Source: a virus. Taken from it: a stretch of 32,985 nt of DNA. Below, piece by piece: positions 5,600 through 32,145 of the stretch; position 1 is the stretch's first letter, and each line of letters begins with the position of its first letter. Below the pieces are notes generated by a model that did not search any database, was not told where the DNA came from, and saw only the letters and a list, made by a program, of their open reading frames with translations. Made by a program: the position numbers and the translations under genes. The DNA is taken from positions 1 to 32,985 of IMG/VR virus record IMGVR_UViG_3300032284_000253; one strand, 5' to 3'.

Positions 5600-6208
5600 A
5601 TGGCTACGACTAGTGTTAAAGTGAATCGTCACATCGACATCATTCGGCGGGAGGTCGTTATATGCGGAGTAAGAGACATCATGTTCGACCGGTACTCGGG
5701 GGACAACAAGACTCAACTGGAGCCTCATCAGAAATTTTACCTCCAACCTTCGGAAGAGTTGCCCGTTATTGGCATTCCGGCGGCGAACATTATCTCGTTC
5801 TTATCCGCACACAACACGAACTCAGCACCCAAGCGTCTGAGGGACAAAAGGCAATACAAGGACATTGCAAACGCCTGCCTCTCATTCGTTGACATTGAAG
5901 AAACATTTATCCCGTTCCTTCGGGATGGTAAACCGATCCAATTCGGTGCATTCGTAAATGACAAAGATGAAGTTAGTAAAGCCTATATCGACCGTCGTGT
6001 TGCTAAGTTGGAGAAGGGAATCCCTAATGTAAAGCACCGCCCTGTGCTTCCAACGCCATGGGAGTTGCGGTTCCATCTAACAATTTTCCCAAACAAGGAA
6101 ATTCAAGAACAGGAAATCTTGAATCTGTTTGAGGATGGCGGGCGAGCACTAGGATTTGGAACTTTCCGTGGTGTGTTTGGAAAGTTCTTCGTCAAATCTT
6201 GGGAATAA
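5600..6208 (+). CDS. RAMP/Cas7-like phage protein (family resemblance)
   Basis: A 202-residue protein. Its layout is an N-terminal strand (REVVICGVRDIMFDRY), a central IPAANIISFLSAHN, a segment KHRPVLPTPWELRFHLTIFP, and a C-terminal glycine-rich loop GRALGFGTFRGVFGKFFVKSW. I recognise this arrangement from hypothetical phage proteins whose loop of the type GxGxxRxxxGKF and two-part ferredoxin-like outline recall RAMP proteins such as Cas7. No Cas genes are present and no nuclease residue is obvious, so it may simply bind single-stranded DNA or RNA. It closes the recombination module and ends six bases before a strong hairpin that leads into the pentamer array. Confidence 0.55.
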   Translation: MATTSVKVNRHIDIIRREVVICGVRDIMFDRYSGDNKTQLEPHQKFYLQPSEELPVIGIPAANIISFLSAHNTNSAPKRLRDKRQYKDIANACLSFVDIEETFIPFLRDGKPIQFGAFVNDKDEVSKAYIDRRVAKLEKGIPNVKHRPVLPTPWELRFHLTIFPNKEIQEQEILNLFEDGGRALGFGTFRGVFGKFFVKSWE

Positions 6209-6213
6209 TCAGT

Positions 6214-6239
6214 TTGGGGGCGTGATATATCGCCCCCAA
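6214..6239 (+). terminator. Strong hairpin at the head of the repeat array
   Basis: A perfect 9-base inverted repeat, TTGGGGGCG (6214-6222) and CGCCCCCAA (6231-6239), encloses the loop TGATATAT. It begins six bases after the stop of the RAMP-like gene and ends five bases before the first GGCNN unit. No U-tract follows, so it may be an intrinsic-like terminator, an RNA processing or stability element, or the 5' boundary of an array transcript. Confidence 0.6.
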
Positions 6240-6244
6240 TTCGC

Positions 6245-6749
6245 GGCTAGGCAAGGCGGGGCGTGGCGGGGCAAGGCGAGGATCGGCACGGCGCGGCGGG
6301 GCTGGGCGAGGCAAGGAATGGCGGGGCGTTGCCCGGCATGGCAAGGCAAGGCAAGGATTCATTAGTAAATTTTGCGTGGCGGGGCAAGGCTATGCCGGGC
6401 GCGGCGTGGCAGGGACCGGCGGGGCTAGGCAAGGCGCGGTAGGGCGAGGCAAGGCAAGGATTCATTAGTAAATTTTGCGTGGCGGGGCGCGGCGCGGCAT
6501 GGCGAGGCACGGCACGGCGTGGCAAGGCAAGGCGAGGATTCATTAGTCAATTTTGCACGGCGGGGCTAGGCAGGGCGAGGCGAAGTTTAATTAGTCAATT
6601 TTTCCGGGCGAGGATGGGCAAGGCGCGGATAGGCTCGGCGTGGCATGGAAAGGCGCGGAGAGGCAAGGCTAGATTCCATTAGTAAATTTTGCGTGGCGGG
6701 GCGTTGCCCGGCGTGGCAAGGCATGGCAAGGTACGGCACGGCAAGGCTA
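6245..6749 (+). repeat. Degenerate GGCNN pentamer array divided by AT-rich boxes
   Basis: This 505-base stretch has no credible gene. It consists of about 75 pentamers of form GGCNN (GGCAA, GGCGG, GGCGT, GGCGA, GGCAC and others) in six runs of about 22, 16, 11, 5, 12 and 11 units, divided by five AT-rich boxes. Four of the five runs that follow a box open with GGCGG. A few units deviate to GGANN, and three are TGCCN, each making a tiny hairpin with its left neighbour (GGGCGTTGCCC twice, GGCTATGCC once). A stretch of about 36 bases starting at 6320 is nearly repeated at 6695. The plus strand is G-rich, so a transcript could form G-quadruplexes or R-loops. Frames crossing it are artefacts of a 5-base period. 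Confidence 0.9.
6356..6693 (+). repeat. Five-copy AT box family within the array
   Basis: Copies lie at 6356-6376, 6459-6479, 6537-6557, 6586-6605 and 6672-6693. The core is ATTAGT(A/C)AATTTT, usually preceded by GATTC and followed by GCG and then a new GGC run. Copies 1 and 2 are identical. Copy 3 has C for A in the core, copy 4 lacks GATTC, and copy 5 has one extra C. Starts are about 103, 78, 49 and 86 bases apart, so spacing is irregular. GATTC is a GANTC site, the CcrM methylation target in Alphaproteobacteria. Confidence 0.85.
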
Positions 6750-6755
6750 TCATTT

Positions 6756-7103
6756 ATGAAACGAGTTCGCATCACAGCTAAAATGAGGGTTGATATCTTC
6801 GAACGGCACGGCGGAATGTGTCATTTGTGCCAGATGAAGGTAATAGCCGGGGAGGACTGGGATGTTAGCCATCAGATACCTTTAGAAGCAGGAGGGCTAG
6901 ATGACGCATCGAACTGGCTCGTTGCTCATAGGAAGTGCCATCGCGTTCATACTGCTACTGTTGACGCTCCCCTCATCGCCAAAGTAAAACGAATACGTCA
7001 ACGCCATATAGGTGCTAAACAATCTAGAACGCCAATGCCATTTGGGCGAGGATCAAAATTCAAGCGCAAAATGGATGGAACTATCGTCAGGAGAGATGAA
7101 TGA
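6756..7103 (+). CDS. HNH endonuclease
   Basis: A 115-residue nuclease. The HNH core is clear: a zinc pair C22-x2-C25, then DWDVSHQIPLEAGG with H39, DDASNWLVAH with N53, and C61-H62. A basic C-terminal tail follows (KRIRQRHIG and FKRKMDGTIVRR), as in free-standing phage HNH proteins. The ATG at 6756 begins seven bases after the last pentamer, so AAGG in the array may serve as its ribosome site; earlier in-frame starts lie inside the repeat and are unlikely. Its role could be homing, packaging-related nicking or action on the neighbouring array. The sequence shows only the nuclease. It overlaps the next gene as ATGA. Confidence 0.85.
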   Translation: MKRVRITAKMRVDIFERHGGMCHLCQMKVIAGEDWDVSHQIPLEAGGLDDASNWLVAHRKCHRVHTATVDAPLIAKVKRIRQRHIGAKQSRTPMPFGRGSKFKRKMDGTIVRRDE

Positions 7104-7802: not shown

Positions 7803-7930
7803 CCTATCTCAAGGCGTATTCTGGCCGTCCTATAGGCCACTTGATATAGAATGCTTGAGGATGACAATCTATGATGAACTGTCCATCATATACCAGCCAG
7901 AATGCTTCTTTAAGCCATCTTGGAGATGAA

Positions 7931-8362
7931 ATGAGCGAAGAGCTTACCAACGATAAAGAGCTGATTTTGGAGATGTGGAAAAAAGGTAATTCAGCCAGAG
8001 ATATTGCTGCGGCTGTCGGCAAAACACGAAATTCAATCATGGGACTGATATATCGGCTCAGGTCAAAGGGATTGGTAGGATACCGGGTAGAGCCTGTCGT
8101 AAAACAGAAGGCGCGTCCAATGCCAAAAAATAAGGTAAGCCGCCCACCAAAGATGAAAAAAGCTCCGATCCCAAAGGTCAAGCCTTTGAAGGATTCCCAG
8201 CCAATCCCGTTCTATAAATTGGAACATTTTAACTGTAGATACATTGTATCCGATGGGATGCCCAAAGACTTTTTGTTCTGCGGGAAAGTGGTACTATCAG
8301 CACCGTACTGCACCGATCACAGAGCCTTGTGCTATACTAGGGATCAGGCCCGTGAAGGATGA
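7931..8362 (+). CDS. gcrA: GcrA-type cell-cycle regulator
   Basis: A 143-residue homologue of GcrA, which binds sigma-70 RNA polymerase and activates promoters carrying methylated GANTC sites. The N-terminal HTH is typical: EMWKKGNSARDIAAAVGKTRNSIMGLIYRL. After a basic linker (KKAPIPKVKPLK) comes the C-terminal part with NCRYIVSDG, FLFCGK and APYCTDHRALCYT, carrying the expected cysteine and histidine residues. The ATG with GGAGATGA upstream was chosen; an earlier frame start at 7871 lacks the family N-terminus. Phage copies may redirect host transcription or time late expression. This gene is the strongest host clue, because the family is known from Alphaproteobacteria. Confidence 0.9.
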   Translation: MSEELTNDKELILEMWKKGNSARDIAAAVGKTRNSIMGLIYRLRSKGLVGYRVEPVVKQKARPMPKNKVSRPPKMKKAPIPKVKPLKDSQPIPFYKLEHFNCRYIVSDGMPKDFLFCGKVVLSAPYCTDHRALCYTRDQAREG

Positions 8363-15900: not shown

Positions 15901-18705
15901 GATCCGCTCAAAGTTCTGACCGCCGGGAAGATTGGCATACATCTGCTGTTGAGCAGCCGCCAAAGACGAGAAGTCCGGCGCACCACCATAGGCATAGCCT
16001 ACGCGACCACCACGGTTCCAGCCGCTTGAACTGCTGCCCGAACTGCTGCCAGATGACGGACCCTTGCCAGTTGCCGTGCCAGAGGATTGCTGCGGCATAT
16101 ACTGCCCAGAGGTATCCCCATAGCGTGTAGTCGGCTGATAAGAGGATGATCCTTTACCCGTCGCGGTAGGCATCCCCTGCGTCCCATAGTTTGTGGGAGC
16201 TGCGCCATAGCCGGAACCGCTATAAGAAGGTTGGAACCCCTTCCCATAGGATGATGGATTATATCCAGACATGGAGGCAGGTCCATAATTAGCTGCGCCC
16301 GGATATTGGTATCCGCCGTATCCCTGACGACCTTGAGCTTCGGCAGAATTAGCAAATGCAGATTGTATAGTCTGGGGAGACATAGAACCGCTCTGCAATT
16401 GTTGATTATAGTATCCATAGCCACTAGGGTCAGACGTACGCCCTAAATATGCTCCATACATATTATTAATCATTGAGTTAGGATCAAAAGATGACCCATA
16501 AGCAGTCGGCGGTGCAGCATAAAACCCATAGCGATTAGGTTGAACACCAAGTCCCTGACCCACAAATGAACTCGGATTATAGGTTAGTGGTGTTTGATTA
16601 ACGAGAGCCTTCTCATTAGATGCGGCAAAAGAACTTGCGACCTGCGATGGAGACATAGTCCCATCAGCAATTTGTTGTGCCCAGTAATCAACACCGGAAG
16701 TATCACCAGAACGGTTTAGATCGCTGCTGTACAAGGAACCGACATAAGCCTTGGCTTGGTCAAGGGTCATACGGCCAGATGAATCAGTTGTTCCAGTAGA
16801 TCCTGTAGTTGAAGTAGAACTTGGATGAGCTGTCTTGTACTCAGATGATGCATCAAGCTGGGACTTCACCTGATCGGCAGTCCACCCCTGTTGCATCAAG
16901 TTTTGATAATATTGAAGTCCAGAAGCATCCGGGGTACGGCCAAACTCGCTCTTATACAAATCAGAAATTGTCTTAGTATAGTCAGCCGGAGCGGTTGACC
17001 CAGAGGTCGTTCCGGTCGTTCCGGTCGTGCTAGGGCTGCCTGATGTATTTGCCTTTTGCGATTTTAGCAGGTTTTGGTATTCTGAAGATTGATCCATAGC
17101 CAACTGAACTTGGCGTGGCGTCATGCCACCAGCCATTTGCTGTTCCCAATAGGCAAGTCCTGCGGGATCAGCTTGTCGGTTAAGTTCAGACTGATACAAA
17201 CTTTGAAGCGTTTGATAGTACGGGTTACCGTCACCCGTGTCAGCCGTGCCGCCATCATCAAACCCCTGACGGGCCATAGACGGCAAAACAGCACCACCCT
17301 CGCTATTGGGGACAAGACCGCCTGAATAGAAGTGTCCACGCTTTGCAGCGTCAGACGTAGCCTTGTTGTAATCAACGGTCTTATACCCAGAAGCCAATCC
17401 GACTGCATCTGGATGCTTATCCTCAACCTCTTGGGCCATCAGTCCAAGACGGCGCTCGTTATCGCCCTTGAGGTTGTAGGCATAGATATTTTGACCATCA
17501 AAGGTCTTACCAACCTTCTCAACATTGTCCTTCAGGCGCTTATCCGACCAGCCAGACGGTTGTGTCGTCGTAGTCGTGGAACCCGACAGAGACCCCGTGC
17601 CTTCCGCAATATTCGCAAGGAACTGCGCCTGTTGATAGGGGAACCCCTGCTGCTGGAGGAACTGGTTGTAAAGTGCCGACTTTGCAGCCTGATCGGTCTG
17701 CTGCTGGACCTGCCCAACGCCCATCTGGGCCTGTGCGCCAGAAAGACCTGCGTTGTATCCAGAAAGGCCAAGATTTGCATAATTCTGGCCGTATTGCTGG
17801 CCGATGTTGAAGAGGTTCTGACCGGCCTGCTGTTGAGCAGCACCCGTCTGGGAACCCATCCCATAAATGCCCTGACCAATGCCAGCCGCTGCCTGTGCCG
17901 CTCCAAGGCCCTGCTGATACTGTTGTTGCCCAAGAGCTGCTTGCTGCTGGGCACCAAACTGCTGGGCGGCCCGGTTAGCCTGCTGAGCGGAAAGATCAAC
18001 ACCCTGCTGCTGCTGGAAAGCACCAAGACCTTGCCCATAACCCTGCTGAAGCAAGTTAGACAACGTAGCCTGATTAGCTAGACTTTGCTGCTGGCCGAGG
18101 TTAGCCAGCGCAATGCCCGCACGATCTCCGCCAAATGCCCCAGCCCGGATAGCATCACCAGTCATCTGAGACCGCTGCTGGGCATTCTGCTGGCCTTGTA
18201 ACGCCTGCTGGGCAGCCACAACATTAGACATATAGGGCGACATATACTGCTGAACGGCATCCTGAGAGAATGCCATCGGAGTGATGTTTTGGGTCGCCCC
18301 CGGAAGATAACCTTGTGCCTGAGCCGTAGCCTGCTGACCGGCCTGAGTGCCCCCAAGAATGCCAGCCAAGGCACCCTGATAAATGCCCTGAGCTTGCTGC
18401 TGTGCCCCAAGCGTAGACCCAAGACCTGCCTGAACCAGCGGGGCAGCAGCCGACGCTCCCGCCGTCATAGCCTGCTGGCCGGTAGAAATATCCGGAGCAT
18501 AAGACCCCATCAACTGATTAACATTGCCAACAGCGGCCTGCTGGCTAGAGGTTAGTGGGGCGACAAAGGCGCTGGGATCTTGAGAATATGAAGTAAAAGG
18601 CTTTTGAGCTACTTGCTCAGCTCTGGAGTTCACAGCATTGTAGCGGGCCAATACTTCGGGTGGAATCGACACTGTTTGCGATGACGTAGTAGATTTGCCG
18701 CCCAT
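12925..18705 (-). CDS. Giant multi-domain virion protein (S74-like, DUF4214, lysozyme-like)
   Basis: A 1926-residue protein. Residues 1-385 are Gln/Ala/Gly-rich and helical. About 386-455 read as an S74-type module (SDKRLKDNVEKVG, LGLMAQEV) placed internally. Four DUF4214-like repeats follow near 493-545, 572-626, 648-700 and 743-793, each of the form YxxxLxRxxDxxGxxYW. A Gly/Tyr/Ser-rich part comes next, then GGR motifs near 893, 1075 and 1192. Residues about 1250-1388 resemble a GH24-type lysozyme: RRGEGL with a likely catalytic Glu near 1260, RIGYGSD and SVAYNHGSLP. A proline-rich linker (1592-1655) leads to a helical C-terminus. It is probably ejected or tail-bound and may open peptidoglycan during entry. 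Confidence 0.75.
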   Translation of the reverse strand: MGGKSTTSSQTVSIPPEVLARYNAVNSRAEQVAQKPFTSYSQDPSAFVAPLTSSQQAAVGNVNQLMGSYAPDISTGQQAMTAGASAAAPLVQAGLGSTLGAQQQAQGIYQGALAGILGGTQAGQQATAQAQGYLPGATQNITPMAFSQDAVQQYMSPYMSNVVAAQQALQGQQNAQQRSQMTGDAIRAGAFGGDRAGIALANLGQQQSLANQATLSNLLQQGYGQGLGAFQQQQGVDLSAQQANRAAQQFGAQQQAALGQQQYQQGLGAAQAAAGIGQGIYGMGSQTGAAQQQAGQNLFNIGQQYGQNYANLGLSGYNAGLSGAQAQMGVGQVQQQTDQAAKSALYNQFLQQQGFPYQQAQFLANIAEGTGSLSGSTTTTTQPSGWSDKRLKDNVEKVGKTFDGQNIYAYNLKGDNERRLGLMAQEVEDKHPDAVGLASGYKTVDYNKATSDAAKRGHFYSGGLVPNSEGGAVLPSMARQGFDDGGTADTGDGNPYYQTLQSLYQSELNRQADPAGLAYWEQQMAGGMTPRQVQLAMDQSSEYQNLLKSQKANTSGSPSTTGTTGTTSGSTAPADYTKTISDLYKSEFGRTPDASGLQYYQNLMQQGWTADQVKSQLDASSEYKTAHPSSTSTTGSTGTTDSSGRMTLDQAKAYVGSLYSSDLNRSGDTSGVDYWAQQIADGTMSPSQVASSFAASNEKALVNQTPLTYNPSSFVGQGLGVQPNRYGFYAAPPTAYGSSFDPNSMINNMYGAYLGRTSDPSGYGYYNQQLQSGSMSPQTIQSAFANSAEAQGRQGYGGYQYPGAANYGPASMSGYNPSSYGKGFQPSYSGSGYGAAPTNYGTQGMPTATGKGSSSYQPTTRYGDTSGQYMPQQSSGTATGKGPSSGSSSGSSSSGWNRGGRVGYAYGGAPDFSSLAAAQQQMYANLPGGQNFERIKLQPGSTRQLMTPTFKPQAPTSGINEAAKMGESIAKLADLGSKAKQKLLGYTDENTGKKVPGLFGGSSETAASSGQAYQGGRPVSELPGGTTTTTTKPAADLEPGLGGASAPELQTAGLAPELTSDSDLLGGLGGFDFAARGGRIGRKSGGPLNDDSSDDTPEGMYKTFGSGINIPDEKGQYKLNVGYTGSGSGSGSNPLGMISSGLGAAKAIGDIGGSLMSLGAGADAAAIGGGGLAAAEGGGSFFADVLPFLFLARGGAANRRGYATDGGGGLNPRNPLTIDSTAEDVTPDDTVQLARQQLAGADTVTDDSGEHPAYAIIRRGEGLIQKPKMDVDKLRIGYGSDTITKDDGTVLPVTKDTVISKEDAERDLKRRVPDFMGAAKKQVGENIWNKLDPDSQGSLTSVAYNHGSLPSQIVAAAKSGNNTALATAVNNLGGTNGGARADRRAFEASLIDKNNVYAPVVSKQPAQPPSEAPSGGLAPQGKFSTAVLPTQRPYASLAQKAGLNLPEELTQSNFWVPLLATVATTMASPRPKFGQALGEGIIGGLSAMSAQDQEQATLGLAGAKTAETKQQADLLKAQTEGVSLQNFYKSIYDTGYGKYVFLADGTPLEFDDYIRRKAAGERIETLGALPQDAQKRVEAVIAERRKAGTLPPASTEKGSVPPIPSGPNIPAPAPDQTPAATPSPTPVPSSTTPSKSPTGEVPVLWPPKPSEPPAVPRGVGFDDTSVKASRDEKSRMMSPTPANETLRKSADAYAASTTNAAQSSRDVAPLHRELSTIIADAGTKGGINTSGYGADVRANIVNFLNTVSRSIGATDKSGNPVTFGDLDQYKNIQDKIDTMLGSRTAASGNQASYAALERLRSALPNISQNPMAAADLAAQNLMLNRKDLDRQAHLTSYLSAGGFGANAAADFDRINSDKKYADEQAVLKDLIALQPKAFMEMMKGKYTADDIDRVIKKTYGKAAPDVTRYFPTRVQKPTSTPTTGVQ

Positions 18706-19505
18706 TACTGTTCTCCGCCGTCAATTTGCTTTTCTGCGCATGTATTATTCTTGTTTTTACTATTTCTATTCTTATTCATTTCTATTGTTCTTAGTCTTTG
18801 TGCTTCGCGTCGCTCTGGAGTCCAAGCATTCTTGAACTTTTCTATTGCTTCCGAAGATCTCTTCTTTCCAATAAGGGAAGCGCGGCGGCGTTCAATCTCT
18901 TCTGGGGGGTGAACTCGGCCAAGGGATGCTTCTCTAGCTTTTTGGGCATGTTCTGCGGATAGCTTCCGTCCAGTAAGAGCCTTAGAAACCTTTTCGTAAT
19001 GTTCCTTGGTTCTTACCCTGTTCTTTTGAAATTTGCTTAGCTTTTCCTTAACCTCTGGTTTATTCAAAGCAATCTTAATTGAATTTGAGAGTGTCTTACG
19101 CAGTTCATCCGTAAGAGCCTTCTTATAAGACTCCCCAATCTTTCTCTTGTGTTTCTCGGAAAGCTTACGCCCTACCTTTGCCTTTCGCATAAGGTTGCGG
19201 GTTTCTTCGCTGGGATTGGACCCACCTTCTCCGCCAGAGGTCAAATTGGCAAGCGCAACACCGATGGATGTCCAATTGGCGATGCGATCCATTTCGATCT
19301 CAAAGGCCTCTTCCTCGGTAAGGTTTTCCGCTACGAGACGCACTTCAACGCACATCCCGATTTGATTCAGCTTGCTTTGGATGTTCGTATGGTATCTGTT
19401 CCGGCCATACATAACATTCGCCCGGCGGCCCATCCCCTTGCCTACATAGAAGCATACGTCCCTATCGGGTCGCCAATGCTCGTAAACGTAGAACTTGCCG
19501 CCCAT
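18705..19505 (-). CDS. GIY-YIG homing endonuclease with NUMOD3 repeats
   Basis: A 266-residue free-standing homing enzyme. The catalytic domain spans about residues 1-95 with FYVYEHW, CFYVGKG, GRR and the acidic EEEAFEIEMDRIA. Several NUMOD3-type DNA-binding repeats follow (SEETRNLMRKAKVGRKLSEKH, GRKLSAEHAQKAREASLG, GKKRSSEAIEKFKNAW), then a basic tail. It is inserted between the GNAT gene and the giant virion gene without breaking either. Its TAA overlaps the ATG of the giant gene. Its first four codons (MGGK) and their surroundings repeat the start of the giant gene, which suggests target-site duplication or capture. The gene is AT-richer than its neighbours, as expected for a mobile gene. 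Confidence 0.88.
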   Translation of the reverse strand: MGGKFYVYEHWRPDRDVCFYVGKGMGRRANVMYGRNRYHTNIQSKLNQIGMCVEVRLVAENLTEEEAFEIEMDRIANWTSIGVALANLTSGGEGGSNPSEETRNLMRKAKVGRKLSEKHKRKIGESYKKALTDELRKTLSNSIKIALNKPEVKEKLSKFQKNRVRTKEHYEKVSKALTGRKLSAEHAQKAREASLGRVHPPEEIERRRASLIGKKRSSEAIEKFKNAWTPERREAQRLRTIEMNKNRNSKNKNNTCAEKQIDGGEQ

Positions 19506-27665: not shown

Positions 27666-29737
27666 AGTGGTGCGCCAAGTTTTACTTTGTCGGATAACAT
27701 AGTGTCAGGCAGGCGGATATTGTAAAACGCGGCGCGGGAGTACCAGCCGTCGGCGGGGGCGCCACCGTTCACACTGCCCAGATAGAACGTGGAAGTCCAT
27801 GTCGGCGCGGTCGTGTCGGTCGTTACCGCAACCCCCGTATTAATGATTGAACGCCCACCAGAACTCCACGCAAGAGCGGCGCGGTTCTGGTTTGTCCAAG
27901 TCGCCCCGGTATTCCCAAACAGCGTGCCGGTGCCAATATTTGTTCCTGAACCGATAATGAACAGGGTCGTTTGAGTACTGGACCCAATCAGACGCCGGTT
28001 AGCGCTATCTGTCGCGGCCTCCTGCGTCGTCTCCACCAACGCCGTCCCCTGTGAACTTGCTAAGATTGTCGCAGGAGTTCCCGTAATTGTTGCTATGTCA
28101 GCAGCGCGGGTTAGGGAAGATCCATATGTTGGTATGGCAGATGAGGCGGTTTGGGAGAAGGAGGAAAGGAGTTCGAGTTGGGGGAGGCCGATGCGTAGAG
28201 TGATATCTATTGCTTGCCCGGTTGTCACGCCAAACGCAACGCAAGGATAAGCGGCGGTCGTTGTAGATGCGGAAAAAGAAGACGTACCCGTATATCGTGT
28301 AAGGGTCGTTGTAATGGAGCCGATTGTGGTATTATTTGACGCGACAAACGCCCCTGTATTAAGCTGCTGTATATTTAGAATAAAGGAACCAACATTTGTT
28401 GCTGTGCCACCCGAACGCTTCAGAAAATAACTTGAATTCCAAGACTGCGACCCAGATGCTGGAACTGCCGTATTGGACTCAACAAATACCTGCACACCTT
28501 GTGAAATTGTTCCAGTTGGAAGCCCAGCAACTCGAAACTCGAGATAATTAATCCCATTCTCAGTGCCAGAACCAACAACAGATGACCCTAATCCACTAAC
28601 GCCATTAAAATAGATAACCCAATTTGTTGGCGGTGTTCCCTGTGAGAGACCACTGACGCTTGCTCCAGTGACACTATCTGTGCGGCTTGTTGAAGTGACG
28701 TAAGAGAATGATGTTGATGCCACAACAGCAGAAACAACAAATGTCCCGTTGTATTCAGACGCATTGGTGCCTGTTGCACCAGTGATTGTGACAAGATCAC
28801 CAACCGAGAAATTGTGCGTTGCCATTGCCGCTACAGCAGTCGCAGAGGCTGTGCGGGAAATGGTAATTCCAGAGCCAGTCGCGCGAGCAGTTCCTGCAAC
28901 CGCCCCCTGCATCGTATTGTTACGAATGCTATTTGTTCGCGCACCTTCCAGCAACAATCCTTTTGCTGCAAGCGTAGATGGATTGTAGTCGAAACGGGGG
29001 CCGTAATAGGCGGCAGAAGTCGTCGCAGGCATGTCCGTGATGGTGGACTGCGCGGCGGTGACAAGTGATAGTTGCGGCAATATAATGCGAAGCGTTACGT
29101 CTATCGCAAGGCTGCCAGCGTTAAATTGAATGTTGAGTGTTGGATAAATATAGGCTGTAGTCGCCTGATTAAGCGTTTGTTGTGTTTGGAAGTTTGCAGG
29201 CGTGCTAGTCAGCGACCCCTTGATGTCGCTACCCGGCAATGTCGCAAGATAAGTTCCGCCACTGTTCTGCATATTGATGGCAAGATAGATTTGCGTAATA
29301 TTCGAAATAGACCCAGACACTAGAGAAACATAAGACCCAGAAATCCAATTTTGAGCATTGACCGCCGCAACTTGGGACAAACTTTCAAACTGGATATATG
29401 CTGTTCCGGAAGATGAAGTTGTTCCAAACACACGTAAGTCTATATAGGTTCCTTGAGATACGGTCCCTGTTCCAATGACTGACGAAGAAAGGCCGCTAAG
29501 ACCTCCAATAGACCAATTGTTAGGTAAAGTACCGGGCGTTCCCGCTGAAGCACCAGACATGCTGTTATTGCGAATCTGATTATTAGGCGCATAAAAAAGA
29601 TTACCGGAAGAATTGAAATAGGTTGCATTGCCAGCACGAGAAAACGAAATCCAAGACGGAAGAGCCGTTGCGCCGAGAAAGTTATAGCTAGCGGTCGGGC
29701 AGATAGAGTTTGTATTGTATGGTATCGTGACGCTCAT
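27662..29737 (-). CDS. Fibre or lectin-like receptor-binding protein with duplicated module
   Basis: A 691-residue beta-rich protein. It contains two related modules, about residues 50-225 and 267-520. Each starts with IRNNSM or IRNNTM, carries a NNW or TNW motif, and ends with RIILPQLSLV or RIGLPQLELL, as in carbohydrate-binding modules of phage fibres. The second copy is interrupted near residues 290-350 by an extra domain (FSVGDLVTITGATG, YNGTFVVSAV). The C-terminal 170 residues (TLFIIGSG, ADGWYSRAAFYNIRLPDTML) look like a concanavalin/LamG-type lectin fold. It overlaps the collagen-like gene by one base (TGATG style) and probably binds host glycans. Confidence 0.75.
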   Translation of the reverse strand: MSVTIPYNTNSICPTASYNFLGATALPSWISFSRAGNATYFNSSGNLFYAPNNQIRNNSMSGASAGTPGTLPNNWSIGGLSGLSSSVIGTGTVSQGTYIDLRVFGTTSSSGTAYIQFESLSQVAAVNAQNWISGSYVSLVSGSISNITQIYLAINMQNSGGTYLATLPGSDIKGSLTSTPANFQTQQTLNQATTAYIYPTLNIQFNAGSLAIDVTLRIILPQLSLVTAAQSTITDMPATTSAAYYGPRFDYNPSTLAAKGLLLEGARTNSIRNNTMQGAVAGTARATGSGITISRTASATAVAAMATHNFSVGDLVTITGATGTNASEYNGTFVVSAVVASTSFSYVTSTSRTDSVTGASVSGLSQGTPPTNWVIYFNGVSGLGSSVVGSGTENGINYLEFRVAGLPTGTISQGVQVFVESNTAVPASGSQSWNSSYFLKRSGGTATNVGSFILNIQQLNTGAFVASNNTTIGSITTTLTRYTGTSSFSASTTTAAYPCVAFGVTTGQAIDITLRIGLPQLELLSSFSQTASSAIPTYGSSLTRAADIATITGTPATILASSQGTALVETTQEAATDSANRRLIGSSTQTTLFIIGSGTNIGTGTLFGNTGATWTNQNRAALAWSSGGRSIINTGVAVTTDTTAPTWTSTFYLGSVNGGAPADGWYSRAAFYNIRLPDTMLSDKVKLGAPL

Positions 29738-30960
29738 CAGACACCGATATTACCTGCGAGGATGAAAGCATTTGCAACTGGGGCAATCAGGGTAGCCACT
29801 GCATACTGACCCGCCGTTTTTGTTGCACTTGCGTATGATGTAAGCGTTGTTCCAGATCCAGCCGCTACCGTAATCTGTCCTGCGCCGTTCTGAATGATTG
29901 TACAAGCGAAATTTGCGCCTAACCCAGACGCAGTTGTCAAAGTGATGGAACTGCCAGATGTAAAGTTGATGATTGTCCCATTATCGCTAGATGACAATGT
30001 ATATGTTGTGGCAGATGTCGTCGTTACAGAACCAGCGCCAGCATTACCAGTTGGACCTGTTGGACCAGTCGGACCTGTAACAGTAGAAGCCGCGCCAGTT
30101 GGACCTGTCGGACCAGTGGGGCCTGTAACTGTAGATGCCGCGCCTGTCGGCCCGGTAGGGCCTGTTGGGCCATTTAGATTAACCGCCCAAGATGCGAATG
30201 TGCCTGTTCCCGTCGTAGACGTAATATTCACAACCATTGCGCCAGTGGCGGAATTGTACGAAGTGACCGTACCAACCATTGAATGGGTGGCATCATTCGC
30301 AATCAAAATCTGCTGGGCGACCGTATAAGACAAGCCCGTGCCAACAGTCAGGGTTTGGGTACCAAGCGCAATTGAAAGCGTTGTTGCGCTGGTTGTCGGA
30401 TACATTGATCCGGAAGATCCAGTAGGGCCTGTCGGGCCCGTTACCGACGGGCCAGTAGCTCCTGTCGGGCCAGTGGGGCCTGTAGGACCTGTTACAGTCG
30501 ATGCAGCGCCAGTAGGCCCGGTTGGCCCAGTGGGTCCGGTCGATCCCGTCGGGCCTGTTACAGTAGAGGCAGCACCGGTTGGGCCGGTCGGGCCAGTAGG
30601 CCCTGTTGGGCCCGTAACTGTTGAAGCCGCGCCAATTGGGCCAGTAGCTCCGGTGGGCCCAATAGGACCAATTGTGCCAGTTGGGCCGGTGGGACCTGTA
30701 GAACCCGTTGCGCCAGCATCGCCTTTTGCGCCGGGGATGCCCTGATTACCCTGAACTCCCTGAGCGCCGGTCGGGCCAGTGGGACCGGTAGGACCGGTTG
30801 CTCCACGCGGGCCACTTGGACCCGTCGGACCAGCCTGAATGCCAGCAACCTGACCAGTTGTTGTGCGGCGGGATACGCCGTTCTGGACAATCTCAAGCTC
30901 TTCCGTGCCAGAAAGAGATGTCGCTACGGCGAGCTGGGGAATCTGGACATTATTTGCCAT
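29737..30960 (-). CDS. Collagen-like virion protein (Gly-Pro-Thr repeats)
   Basis: A 407-residue protein. A short N-terminal head ([17 protein letters not shown]) of the type found in phage fibre attachment regions is followed by Gly-X-Y triplets, mostly Gly-Pro-Thr, near residues 44-187 and 267-307. A 75-residue beta domain ([19 protein letters not shown]) separates the two stretches, and a Ser/Thr/Ala-rich C-terminal beta domain ends in FILAGNIGV. The linker [11 protein letters not shown] occurs five times. Such stretches form trimeric triple helices that act as shafts. The protein should be part of a fibre with the lectin-like protein downstream. Its start overlaps the preceding gene by 11 bases. 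Confidence 0.85.
30053..30830. repeat. Nine-base-periodic collagen repeats (two blocks)
   Basis: Units coding Gly-Pro-Thr form two DNA blocks, about 30053-30172 and 30417-30830, separated by non-repetitive coding sequence. Third codon positions vary, so the array is old or selected for protein repeats rather than newly slipped. A larger unit containing GAASTVTG recurs five times. Copy number changes would keep the frame and alter shaft length. Confidence 0.8.
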
Positions 30961-31459
30961 TTAGCGGACCCGTTTTTGGCACTTCATCGAAGTTATACGG
31001 CAATCCGGGGTCTGCGTCACCCGGAGCATTGGGGTCTGTACCCGGCTCTTGGTTAAGCCCACCCGGTGGTTCGCCAGTAGTCTGCGTCACGCGAACATTG
31101 TCATCCTGCGTAACACGGGTATCACCATTGATGATTGGAATATTCGTGACAGGATCGACTGTGTTTTGACCAGAAGTAGCGCGGGTATTTGTTTCAGCCG
31201 TTACATAATCTTGAATACGAGGGTTCTGGATCGGCACGGGGTCAGCCGGAATAACGATTGCCCGAAGCTGCTGCTGCGGCTCGTCATAGCAAGGATTGCA
31301 GACAAGAATGCGCTTATTGATGAGAGAAGCGCCTGCCCAGTCGAACTGCCATCTAAGTGTTGAATGCGTATATACAAAGCCGCACCTATCGCATATCCCG
31401 GCAGCTTGCGGGTTTGTTGCACTTATTCGTGCCCGACCTAACTTACTTGCATAAGCCAT
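30950..31459 (-). CDS. Zinc-ribbon-containing virion-associated protein
   Basis: A 169-residue protein. It has a four-cysteine motif, [15 protein letters not shown] followed by [16 protein letters not shown], that looks like a zinc ribbon binding one metal ion. The rest is proline- and glycine-rich and probably unfolded ([21 protein letters not shown]). I recognise the pattern from late operons of related podoviruses, where it precedes fibre genes, but its function is not known to me. Its ATG shares a base with the stop of the GIY-YIG gene, so before the homing gene entered, it was probably coupled to the adaptor gene. Confidence 0.65.
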
Positions 31460-32145
31460 TACGACATCTCCACATATTTAAATTTTAAACCACCAACAGT
31501 TTTTCTTCCATTCTTATTTAAACATAATTCTATTAAAGCGCTTTTAGACACAGAGTAATGTCTAGCCGCTTCACTTGCGCTTTTAAATGTTTTTCCGTCG
31601 TCCACGCACAAAACAGTTCTTGATAAACTATCTGGGCCAAGTTTCATGTATTGTTTAAAAATATCAAAATTTTTATGTCCATGTTTAGAAAGTTTTTCTT
31701 TAACATCTTTTGTATGCTTTTTCCCAAGCCTATATGTATTTCCATTATGGACTTCTTTAAGTTTTTTTACCATTCTTTCTTTGTTTTTTACAGGATCGCG
31801 TTTAGCATTCTTTCTTTTAATTGAAAAAATCTTTTTAGTTTTATCAGTGTGGCGAAATCCAGATGTGCCCTCTCCTCCAAGCGTCATATTGCATAAATCT
31901 ACGCCTGTAGATTTCCAAAACTGAATACGTTCTTTTTCTAACGTGAACGCTTCTTCTTCAGAAAGCCCACAAGATACAATTCTTACCTCAAATGCAGAAT
32001 TTTCACGAGATAATTTATTGCAAATTGCCTTATGGTGTCTGTTTCTTTTGTCCATTGAATATGCGCGTCTTCCACTGCCCTTCCCAACATAGAAGCACTC
32101 ATCACGGTCCAATCTCCAATGTTCATAAACGTAAAAATTATTCAT
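31459..32145 (-). CDS. GIY-YIG homing endonuclease with NUMOD3 and NUMOD1
   Basis: A 228-residue homing enzyme clearly AT-richer than its neighbours. The catalytic domain is in the first 95 residues: FYVYEHW, CFYVGKG, GRR and the acidic EEEAFTLEKERI. A NUMOD3-type segment follows (GFRHTDKTKKIFSIKRKN and LGKKHTKDVKEKLSKHG), then a NUMOD1-like domain at the C-terminus (DGKTFKSASEAARHYSVSKS, with KTVGGLKFKY). It is inserted flush: its ATG overlaps the adaptor stop as ATGA and its TAA overlaps the next ATG. Its catalytic domain is similar to the other GIY-YIG gene, but the C-terminal half differs. Confidence 0.88.
   Translation of the reverse strand: MNNFYVYEHWRLDRDECFYVGKGSGRRAYSMDKRNRHHKAICNKLSRENSAFEVRIVSCGLSEEEAFTLEKERIQFWKSTGVDLCNMTLGGEGTSGFRHTDKTKKIFSIKRKNAKRDPVKNKERMVKKLKEVHNGNTYRLGKKHTKDVKEKLSKHGHKNFDIFKQYMKLGPDSLSRTVLCVDDGKTFKSASEAARHYSVSKSALIELCLNKNGRKTVGGLKFKYVEMS

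Follow-up and report, generated by a model that had tools for sequence, protein, structure and literature searches.

In April 2026, a bioRxiv preprint reported VIPR (Viral Interference Programmable Repeat), an RNA-guided DNA-binding system that consists of a minimal RAMP protein and of vrRNAs, which combine 9-16 YNNGG repeats and a tail (PMC13142463). The NN positions of these repeats pair with double-stranded DNA, one base being skipped per repeat, and binding silences transcription, with competing phages, prophages and satellites as the natural targets (PMC13142463). The mechanism was tested in two systems, SUSP1 and P. fulva, which belong to type II among the seven types of the preprint's VIPR tree (PMC13142463). 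Here we analyse a locus in a viral DNA of 32,985 nucleotides (positions 1 to 32,985 of the IMG/VR record IMGVR_UViG_3300032284_000253, hereafter the window), for which an earlier note, made from the letters alone, had held that any guide role would be new. This expectation had been overtaken, as VIPR was described months ago; the locus is an additional, real VIPR locus, and the explanation that we propose for its positions 5600-6749 is very probably the right one.

At the level of sequence, the locus combines a RAMP homologue with an adjoining GGY/NN pentamer array, whose NN are hypervariable, and with the invariable 3' tail, the sixth array unit having no clear one. The vipr homologue (5600-6208, plus strand) encodes 202 amino acids and ends in ...GGRALGFGTFRGVFGKFFVKSWE; the conserved C-terminal pattern of the Vipr family, AGxxxGxGxxRPxxxxxxGxF, represents the glycine-rich loop of RAMP proteins. 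A Pfam scan of the protein returned zero matches and a comparison with PHROG a single weak one, phrog_4652, a family of unannotated function. Homologues from IMG/VR relatives, extended with an iterative profile, yielded 93 aligned sequences with a lowest identity of 14%, and phrog_4652 was matched by all 93. The AlphaFold2 model of the protein is confident (pLDDT 93.3, pTM 0.87), and its best matches among solved structures are Csm3 subunits of type III CRISPR complexes, with Z-scores of up to 12.3 and superpositions of 161-167 residues, that is, most of the protein, at an rmsd of about 4 Å. The structure prediction and Cas comparison that the earlier note had proposed as a check thus returned a RAMP fold, closest to Csm3, rather than an unrelated structure. 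The 93-homologue profile also matched PDB entry 36pp, the 'SUSP1 Vipr protein', with an E-value of 3.2e-37; since hhalign still found 36pp (95.9%, E 5.7e-9) from a smaller, 20-sequence alignment drawn mainly from the window's own clade, this link is not due to profile drift. Judged by its predicted structure and by these profile matches, the protein is a single-RRM RAMP of the Cas7/Csm3-like kind and belongs to the Vipr family of SUSP1, in line with the note's reading of a RAMP/Cas7-like protein. A stretch identical to the Vipr protein of E. coli phage SUSP1 is also found in GenBank GU169904.1 (91700-91861, 'Staphylococcus phage SA1'), a record that is probably mislabelled or contaminated.

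Within the family, a maximum-likelihood tree separates the window from SUSP1, placing it in a fully supported (100/100) clade of 26 rows that sits on a long branch, and the two Vipr proteins are only 15% identical. A vap1 homologue is absent near the window's vipr. Because of its separate clade and the absence of vap1, the locus would not be assigned to VIPR type II, as far as these sequence comparisons go. The cluster tally of neighbours over 108 loci gave no universal accessory gene beside vipr: its two most populous clusters consist of spurious reading frames within arrays, and the next, YqaJ exonuclease, occurs at 13 of the 108 loci. The other genes around vipr are ordinary early genes of phages, such as YqaJ, ERF, SSB and helicases. 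Cas families found zero matches among the ten neighbourhood proteins scanned, in agreement with the note, which had seen no Cas genes.

Elsewhere in the window, the gene at 7871-8362 (plus strand) encodes a homologue of GcrA, a cell-cycle regulator of Alphaproteobacteria (PF07750, E 1e-13), which points to a host from this class or to takeover of the host via GcrA sites. Two similar reading frames on the minus strand (18705-19505 and 31459-32145) start with FYVYEHWR.DRD.CFYVGKG..RRA and by eye look like GIY-YIG nucleases, with no Pfam match at 0.001. A collagen-like GPTGPTG repeat protein (29737-30960, minus strand; PF01391, E 2e-17) is probably a fibre.

The array downstream of vipr (6245-6749) lies, like the other three elements, where the earlier note had put it, and stands far above chance: it contains 52 GGY-GGY pairs at an exact spacing of 5 nt, compared to a mean of 4.1 and a maximum of 10 in 300 dinucleotide shuffles, and four matches to eight consecutive GGCNN, compared to none in shuffles. 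It is not uniform, being split by a repeated AT-rich motif into six units, five GGC runs and a short one, with GGA replacing GGY in some of them. The AT-rich tail, most commonly GGATTCATTAGTAAATTTTGC, closes five of the six units; these five tails align with one another and with two tails from the related locus L004, and the motif TTCATTAGT-n-TTTT is common to both loci, while their NN series differ. By GGC register and tail motif, unit 1 (6243-6375) comprises 22 pentamers (6245-6354) and a tail (6355-6375), long enough for two fused or staggered guides. Unit 2 (6376-6478, tail 6458-6478) reads GT GG AA TA CG GC GT AG CC GG TA AA GC AG GA AA AA at its NN positions, and unit 3 (6479-6556, tail 6536-6556) reads GT GG GC GC AT GA AC AC GT AA AA GA. 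Unit 4 (6557-6604), delimited by sequence reading and tail alignment, is short, with about 6 NN and a tail from 6584, and is possibly decayed. Unit 5 (6605-6692, tail 6672-6692) has about 14 NN, four of which follow GGA instead of GGC. Unit 6 (6693-6749) reads GT GG GT CC GT AA AT AA AC AC AA TA, and the sequence downstream of it merges into the start codon of an HNH gene. All six lie on the plus strand. An Rfam scan of the array found no family at gathering score, and no hammerhead was seen in it. The note had also remarked that true spacers are missing; indeed, the pentamer array holds no contiguous spacers, because it is the NN dinucleotides that carry the guide information.

The perfect 9-bp hairpin that the note had placed shortly after the protein gene (6214-6239, plus strand) lies ahead of the array, with an 8-nt loop and with five bases separating the vipr stop codon from the stem. 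It is real, but taken alone it is weak evidence, its folding advantage over shuffled sequences being modest (z -2.0; 8 of 200 shuffles were equally good). By eye, L004 and L005 have hairpins of different sequence at this position, and L002 and L007 have none there. The element probably marks a transcript end or a boundary.

The association of array and protein was assessed from both sides. When viral contigs were scanned for runs of nine GGCNN pentamers, with no protein used as query, at least 119 loci emerged, and among the array-first loci listed a vipr homologue was present in 85 of 119 (84 in the first count), or in 73 of 82 when only multi-block arrays are considered. Among these same loci, the nearest array was on the coding strand in 82 of the 84 homologue-bearing loci measured, and within 300 bp of vipr in 65 of 84 by the first count; in five of the nine multi-block loci without a homologue, the array lies no more than 150 bp from the end of its contig. 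Conversely, starting from the protein, an array lay beside the gene wherever the flanks could be read, namely in 15 viral relatives and in five relatives on bacterial contigs. This co-occurrence, found array-first and protein-first, establishes protein and array as a genuine two-part system, closely linked in phages of diverse kinds. Two loci, L046 and L091, are the only ones among the array-first matches listed with the nearest array on the strand opposite vipr. Relatives of 55-68% identity (L138-L142) sit on contigs attributed to Methylococcaceae, Patescibacteria, Paraburkholderia, Planctomycetota and Candidimonas, of which those that come from metagenome bins may be binned viral contigs. 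In one vipr clade (L023, L045, L078, L119), the GGC arrays are unbroken, with up to about 120 pentamers per run, compared to units of 10-20 pentamers outside it, and are perhaps the staggered arrays of the preprint.

The HNH endonuclease gene (6756-7103, plus strand; 115 aa; PF01844, E 9e-6; phrog_333, E 2e-16) does follow the last repeat on the same strand, as the note had described, its ATG at 6756 lying six bases past the last pentamer; an alternative in-frame ATG at 6645 would extend the frame back into the array, and we took 6756 as the start. Given this proximity, it is conceivable that the HNH protein is an accessory (vap) protein and that the guided complex cuts its target DNA instead of only silencing it. 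Accessory nucleases do occur in some VIPR types (PMC13142463), and in the same-clade loci L005 and L018 a close HNH homologue immediately precedes vipr. However, an HNH homologue lies within 1 kb of vipr at only 5 of 108 loci, where about 2.4 would be expected from the HNH density in the same loci, and it changes sides, being upstream of vipr in L005 and L018 and downstream of the array in the window; other same-clade loci (L002, L007, L009, L138) carry different genes at that place, and such HNH genes are widespread in other phages. We therefore reject a three-part system and consider an accessory role improbable; the HNH gene is most likely a bystander. The more novel proposal that the window's clade is a VIPR variant recruiting an array-end HNH nuclease, and so a phage-borne VIPR with guided DNA cleavage, is likewise improbable. 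In the preprint, nucleases are found only in VIPR types associated with host defence (PMC13142463). Another vipr clade has four members, L062, L082, L107 and L111, and in the first three an HNH gene lies 0.7-2.6 kb from vipr, which makes this clade the best place to seek an HNH accessory. The co-occurrence test suggested in the earlier note, which had likened the whole arrangement to RNA-guided or repeat-associated systems, thus upholds the module of protein and array, a combination now known from VIPR (PMC13142463), and removes the HNH gene from the conserved layout.

If protein and array form a unit, the array could nevertheless be a DNA or mRNA binding site, serving autoregulation by the Vipr-like protein or marking sites of replication or recombination, with no guide role. 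Arrays do flank the vipr gene itself, and the module resides among phage genes for recombination and replication (YqaJ, ERF, SSB, helicases). A fixed binding site, however, would not be expected to behave as the arrays of close relatives do, in which the NN turn over and GGC and tail persist. The loci L012 and L016 have 94% of the vipr gene in common and a near-identical tail, next to unrelated upstream genes, and of about seven NN outside the last two repeats none agree in our reading of the alignment; L002 and L003 have 96% of vipr in common and well-matched flanks, yet different arrays. The pattern in these two pairs is the one expected of replaceable guides, and the turnover stands as evidence independently of the VIPR preprint. 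As the same family with the same repeat is, moreover, RNA-guided in SUSP1 and P. fulva (PMC13142463), we regard a mere binding site as very unlikely. The simpler reading offered in the note, in which a mobile HNH gene and a regulatory repeat are unrelated neighbours, is right in that the HNH gene appears independent, but is almost certainly wrong as a whole, since the repeat accompanies a member of the Vipr family in most of the array-bearing contigs listed and in every relative with readable flanks.

For the VIPR reading that we favour, the sequence of events can be pictured largely by analogy. As in SUSP1 and P. fulva, the array would give rise, by transcription from the coding strand, to short vrRNAs in which a series of GGC-NN pentamers is closed by the conserved tail (ATTCATTAGT); on our own reading of the units, the AT-rich tail would form the 3' end of one guide RNA. 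Copies of Vipr would coat this RNA, probably one per pentamer by our reckoning, and, if the ribonucleoprotein assembles as in the published systems, each copy would grip a GGC and present the adjacent NN. The NN would then be read in order, with one target base skipped in between, pairing with the double-stranded DNA of a rival phage, prophage or satellite, where the bound complex would block transcription.

We also searched for targets. Four 9-NN patterns from the window's guides had no exact match in IMG/VR, and two 8-NN patterns had 20 and 2 matches, none of which extends past 9 NN in all; these searches gave no target for the window's guides. The 20 matches to the first eight NN of unit 3 all encode VGAA(I/M)(D/E)TT in wobble phase and fail at the other four NN; we discounted them, as four-fold degenerate codons yield such matches by chance. 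Over skip lengths of 0-4 and 411 guides, there was no convincing excess at skip 1 (52 compared to 40.8, sd 7.0) in the fetched loci, which are a small sequence set and not the right targets. Guides from Candidimonas and Paraburkholderia, compared with 268 and 349 genomes, respectively, at up to three mismatches, gave no target.

VIPR has been described in a single recent preprint; the present analysis adds a VIPR locus from a clade that has strong support and is remote from SUSP1, and counts, independently of that preprint, how often pentamer array and Vipr protein occur together. Should the 1-nt skip code also apply to the window's Vipr, with its 15% identity to that of SUSP1, the code would be general; should it not, variants of it would exist, and either outcome bears on the origin of RAMP-based RNA guidance. 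Among other guide systems, TIGR-Tas reportedly also places a phage-borne guide array beside one gene, but is said to employ a Nop-domain protein family and interspaced guide pairs, unlike the RAMP protein and pentamer array of the window. Csm3, the Cas7-family backbone of type III CRISPR-Cas, resembles the window protein over nearly its whole fold, including the glycine-rich loop, at about 10% identity. The window differs from type III systems in having pentamers as its guide, with no Cas neighbours among the proteins scanned and no contiguous spacers, and so lies outside class 1 CRISPR-Cas, which is defined by a contiguous-spacer array and further cas genes. Compared to the SUSP1 VIPR locus, where GGY-NN arrays lie on both sides of vipr and mostly use GGT, the window has its array downstream only, uses GGC with some GGA, carries a different tail and lacks a vap1 homologue near vipr. 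What the two have in common is a small RAMP protein of one family in a phage genome and, beside its gene, coding-strand GGY-NN arrays of several units, each with a tail.
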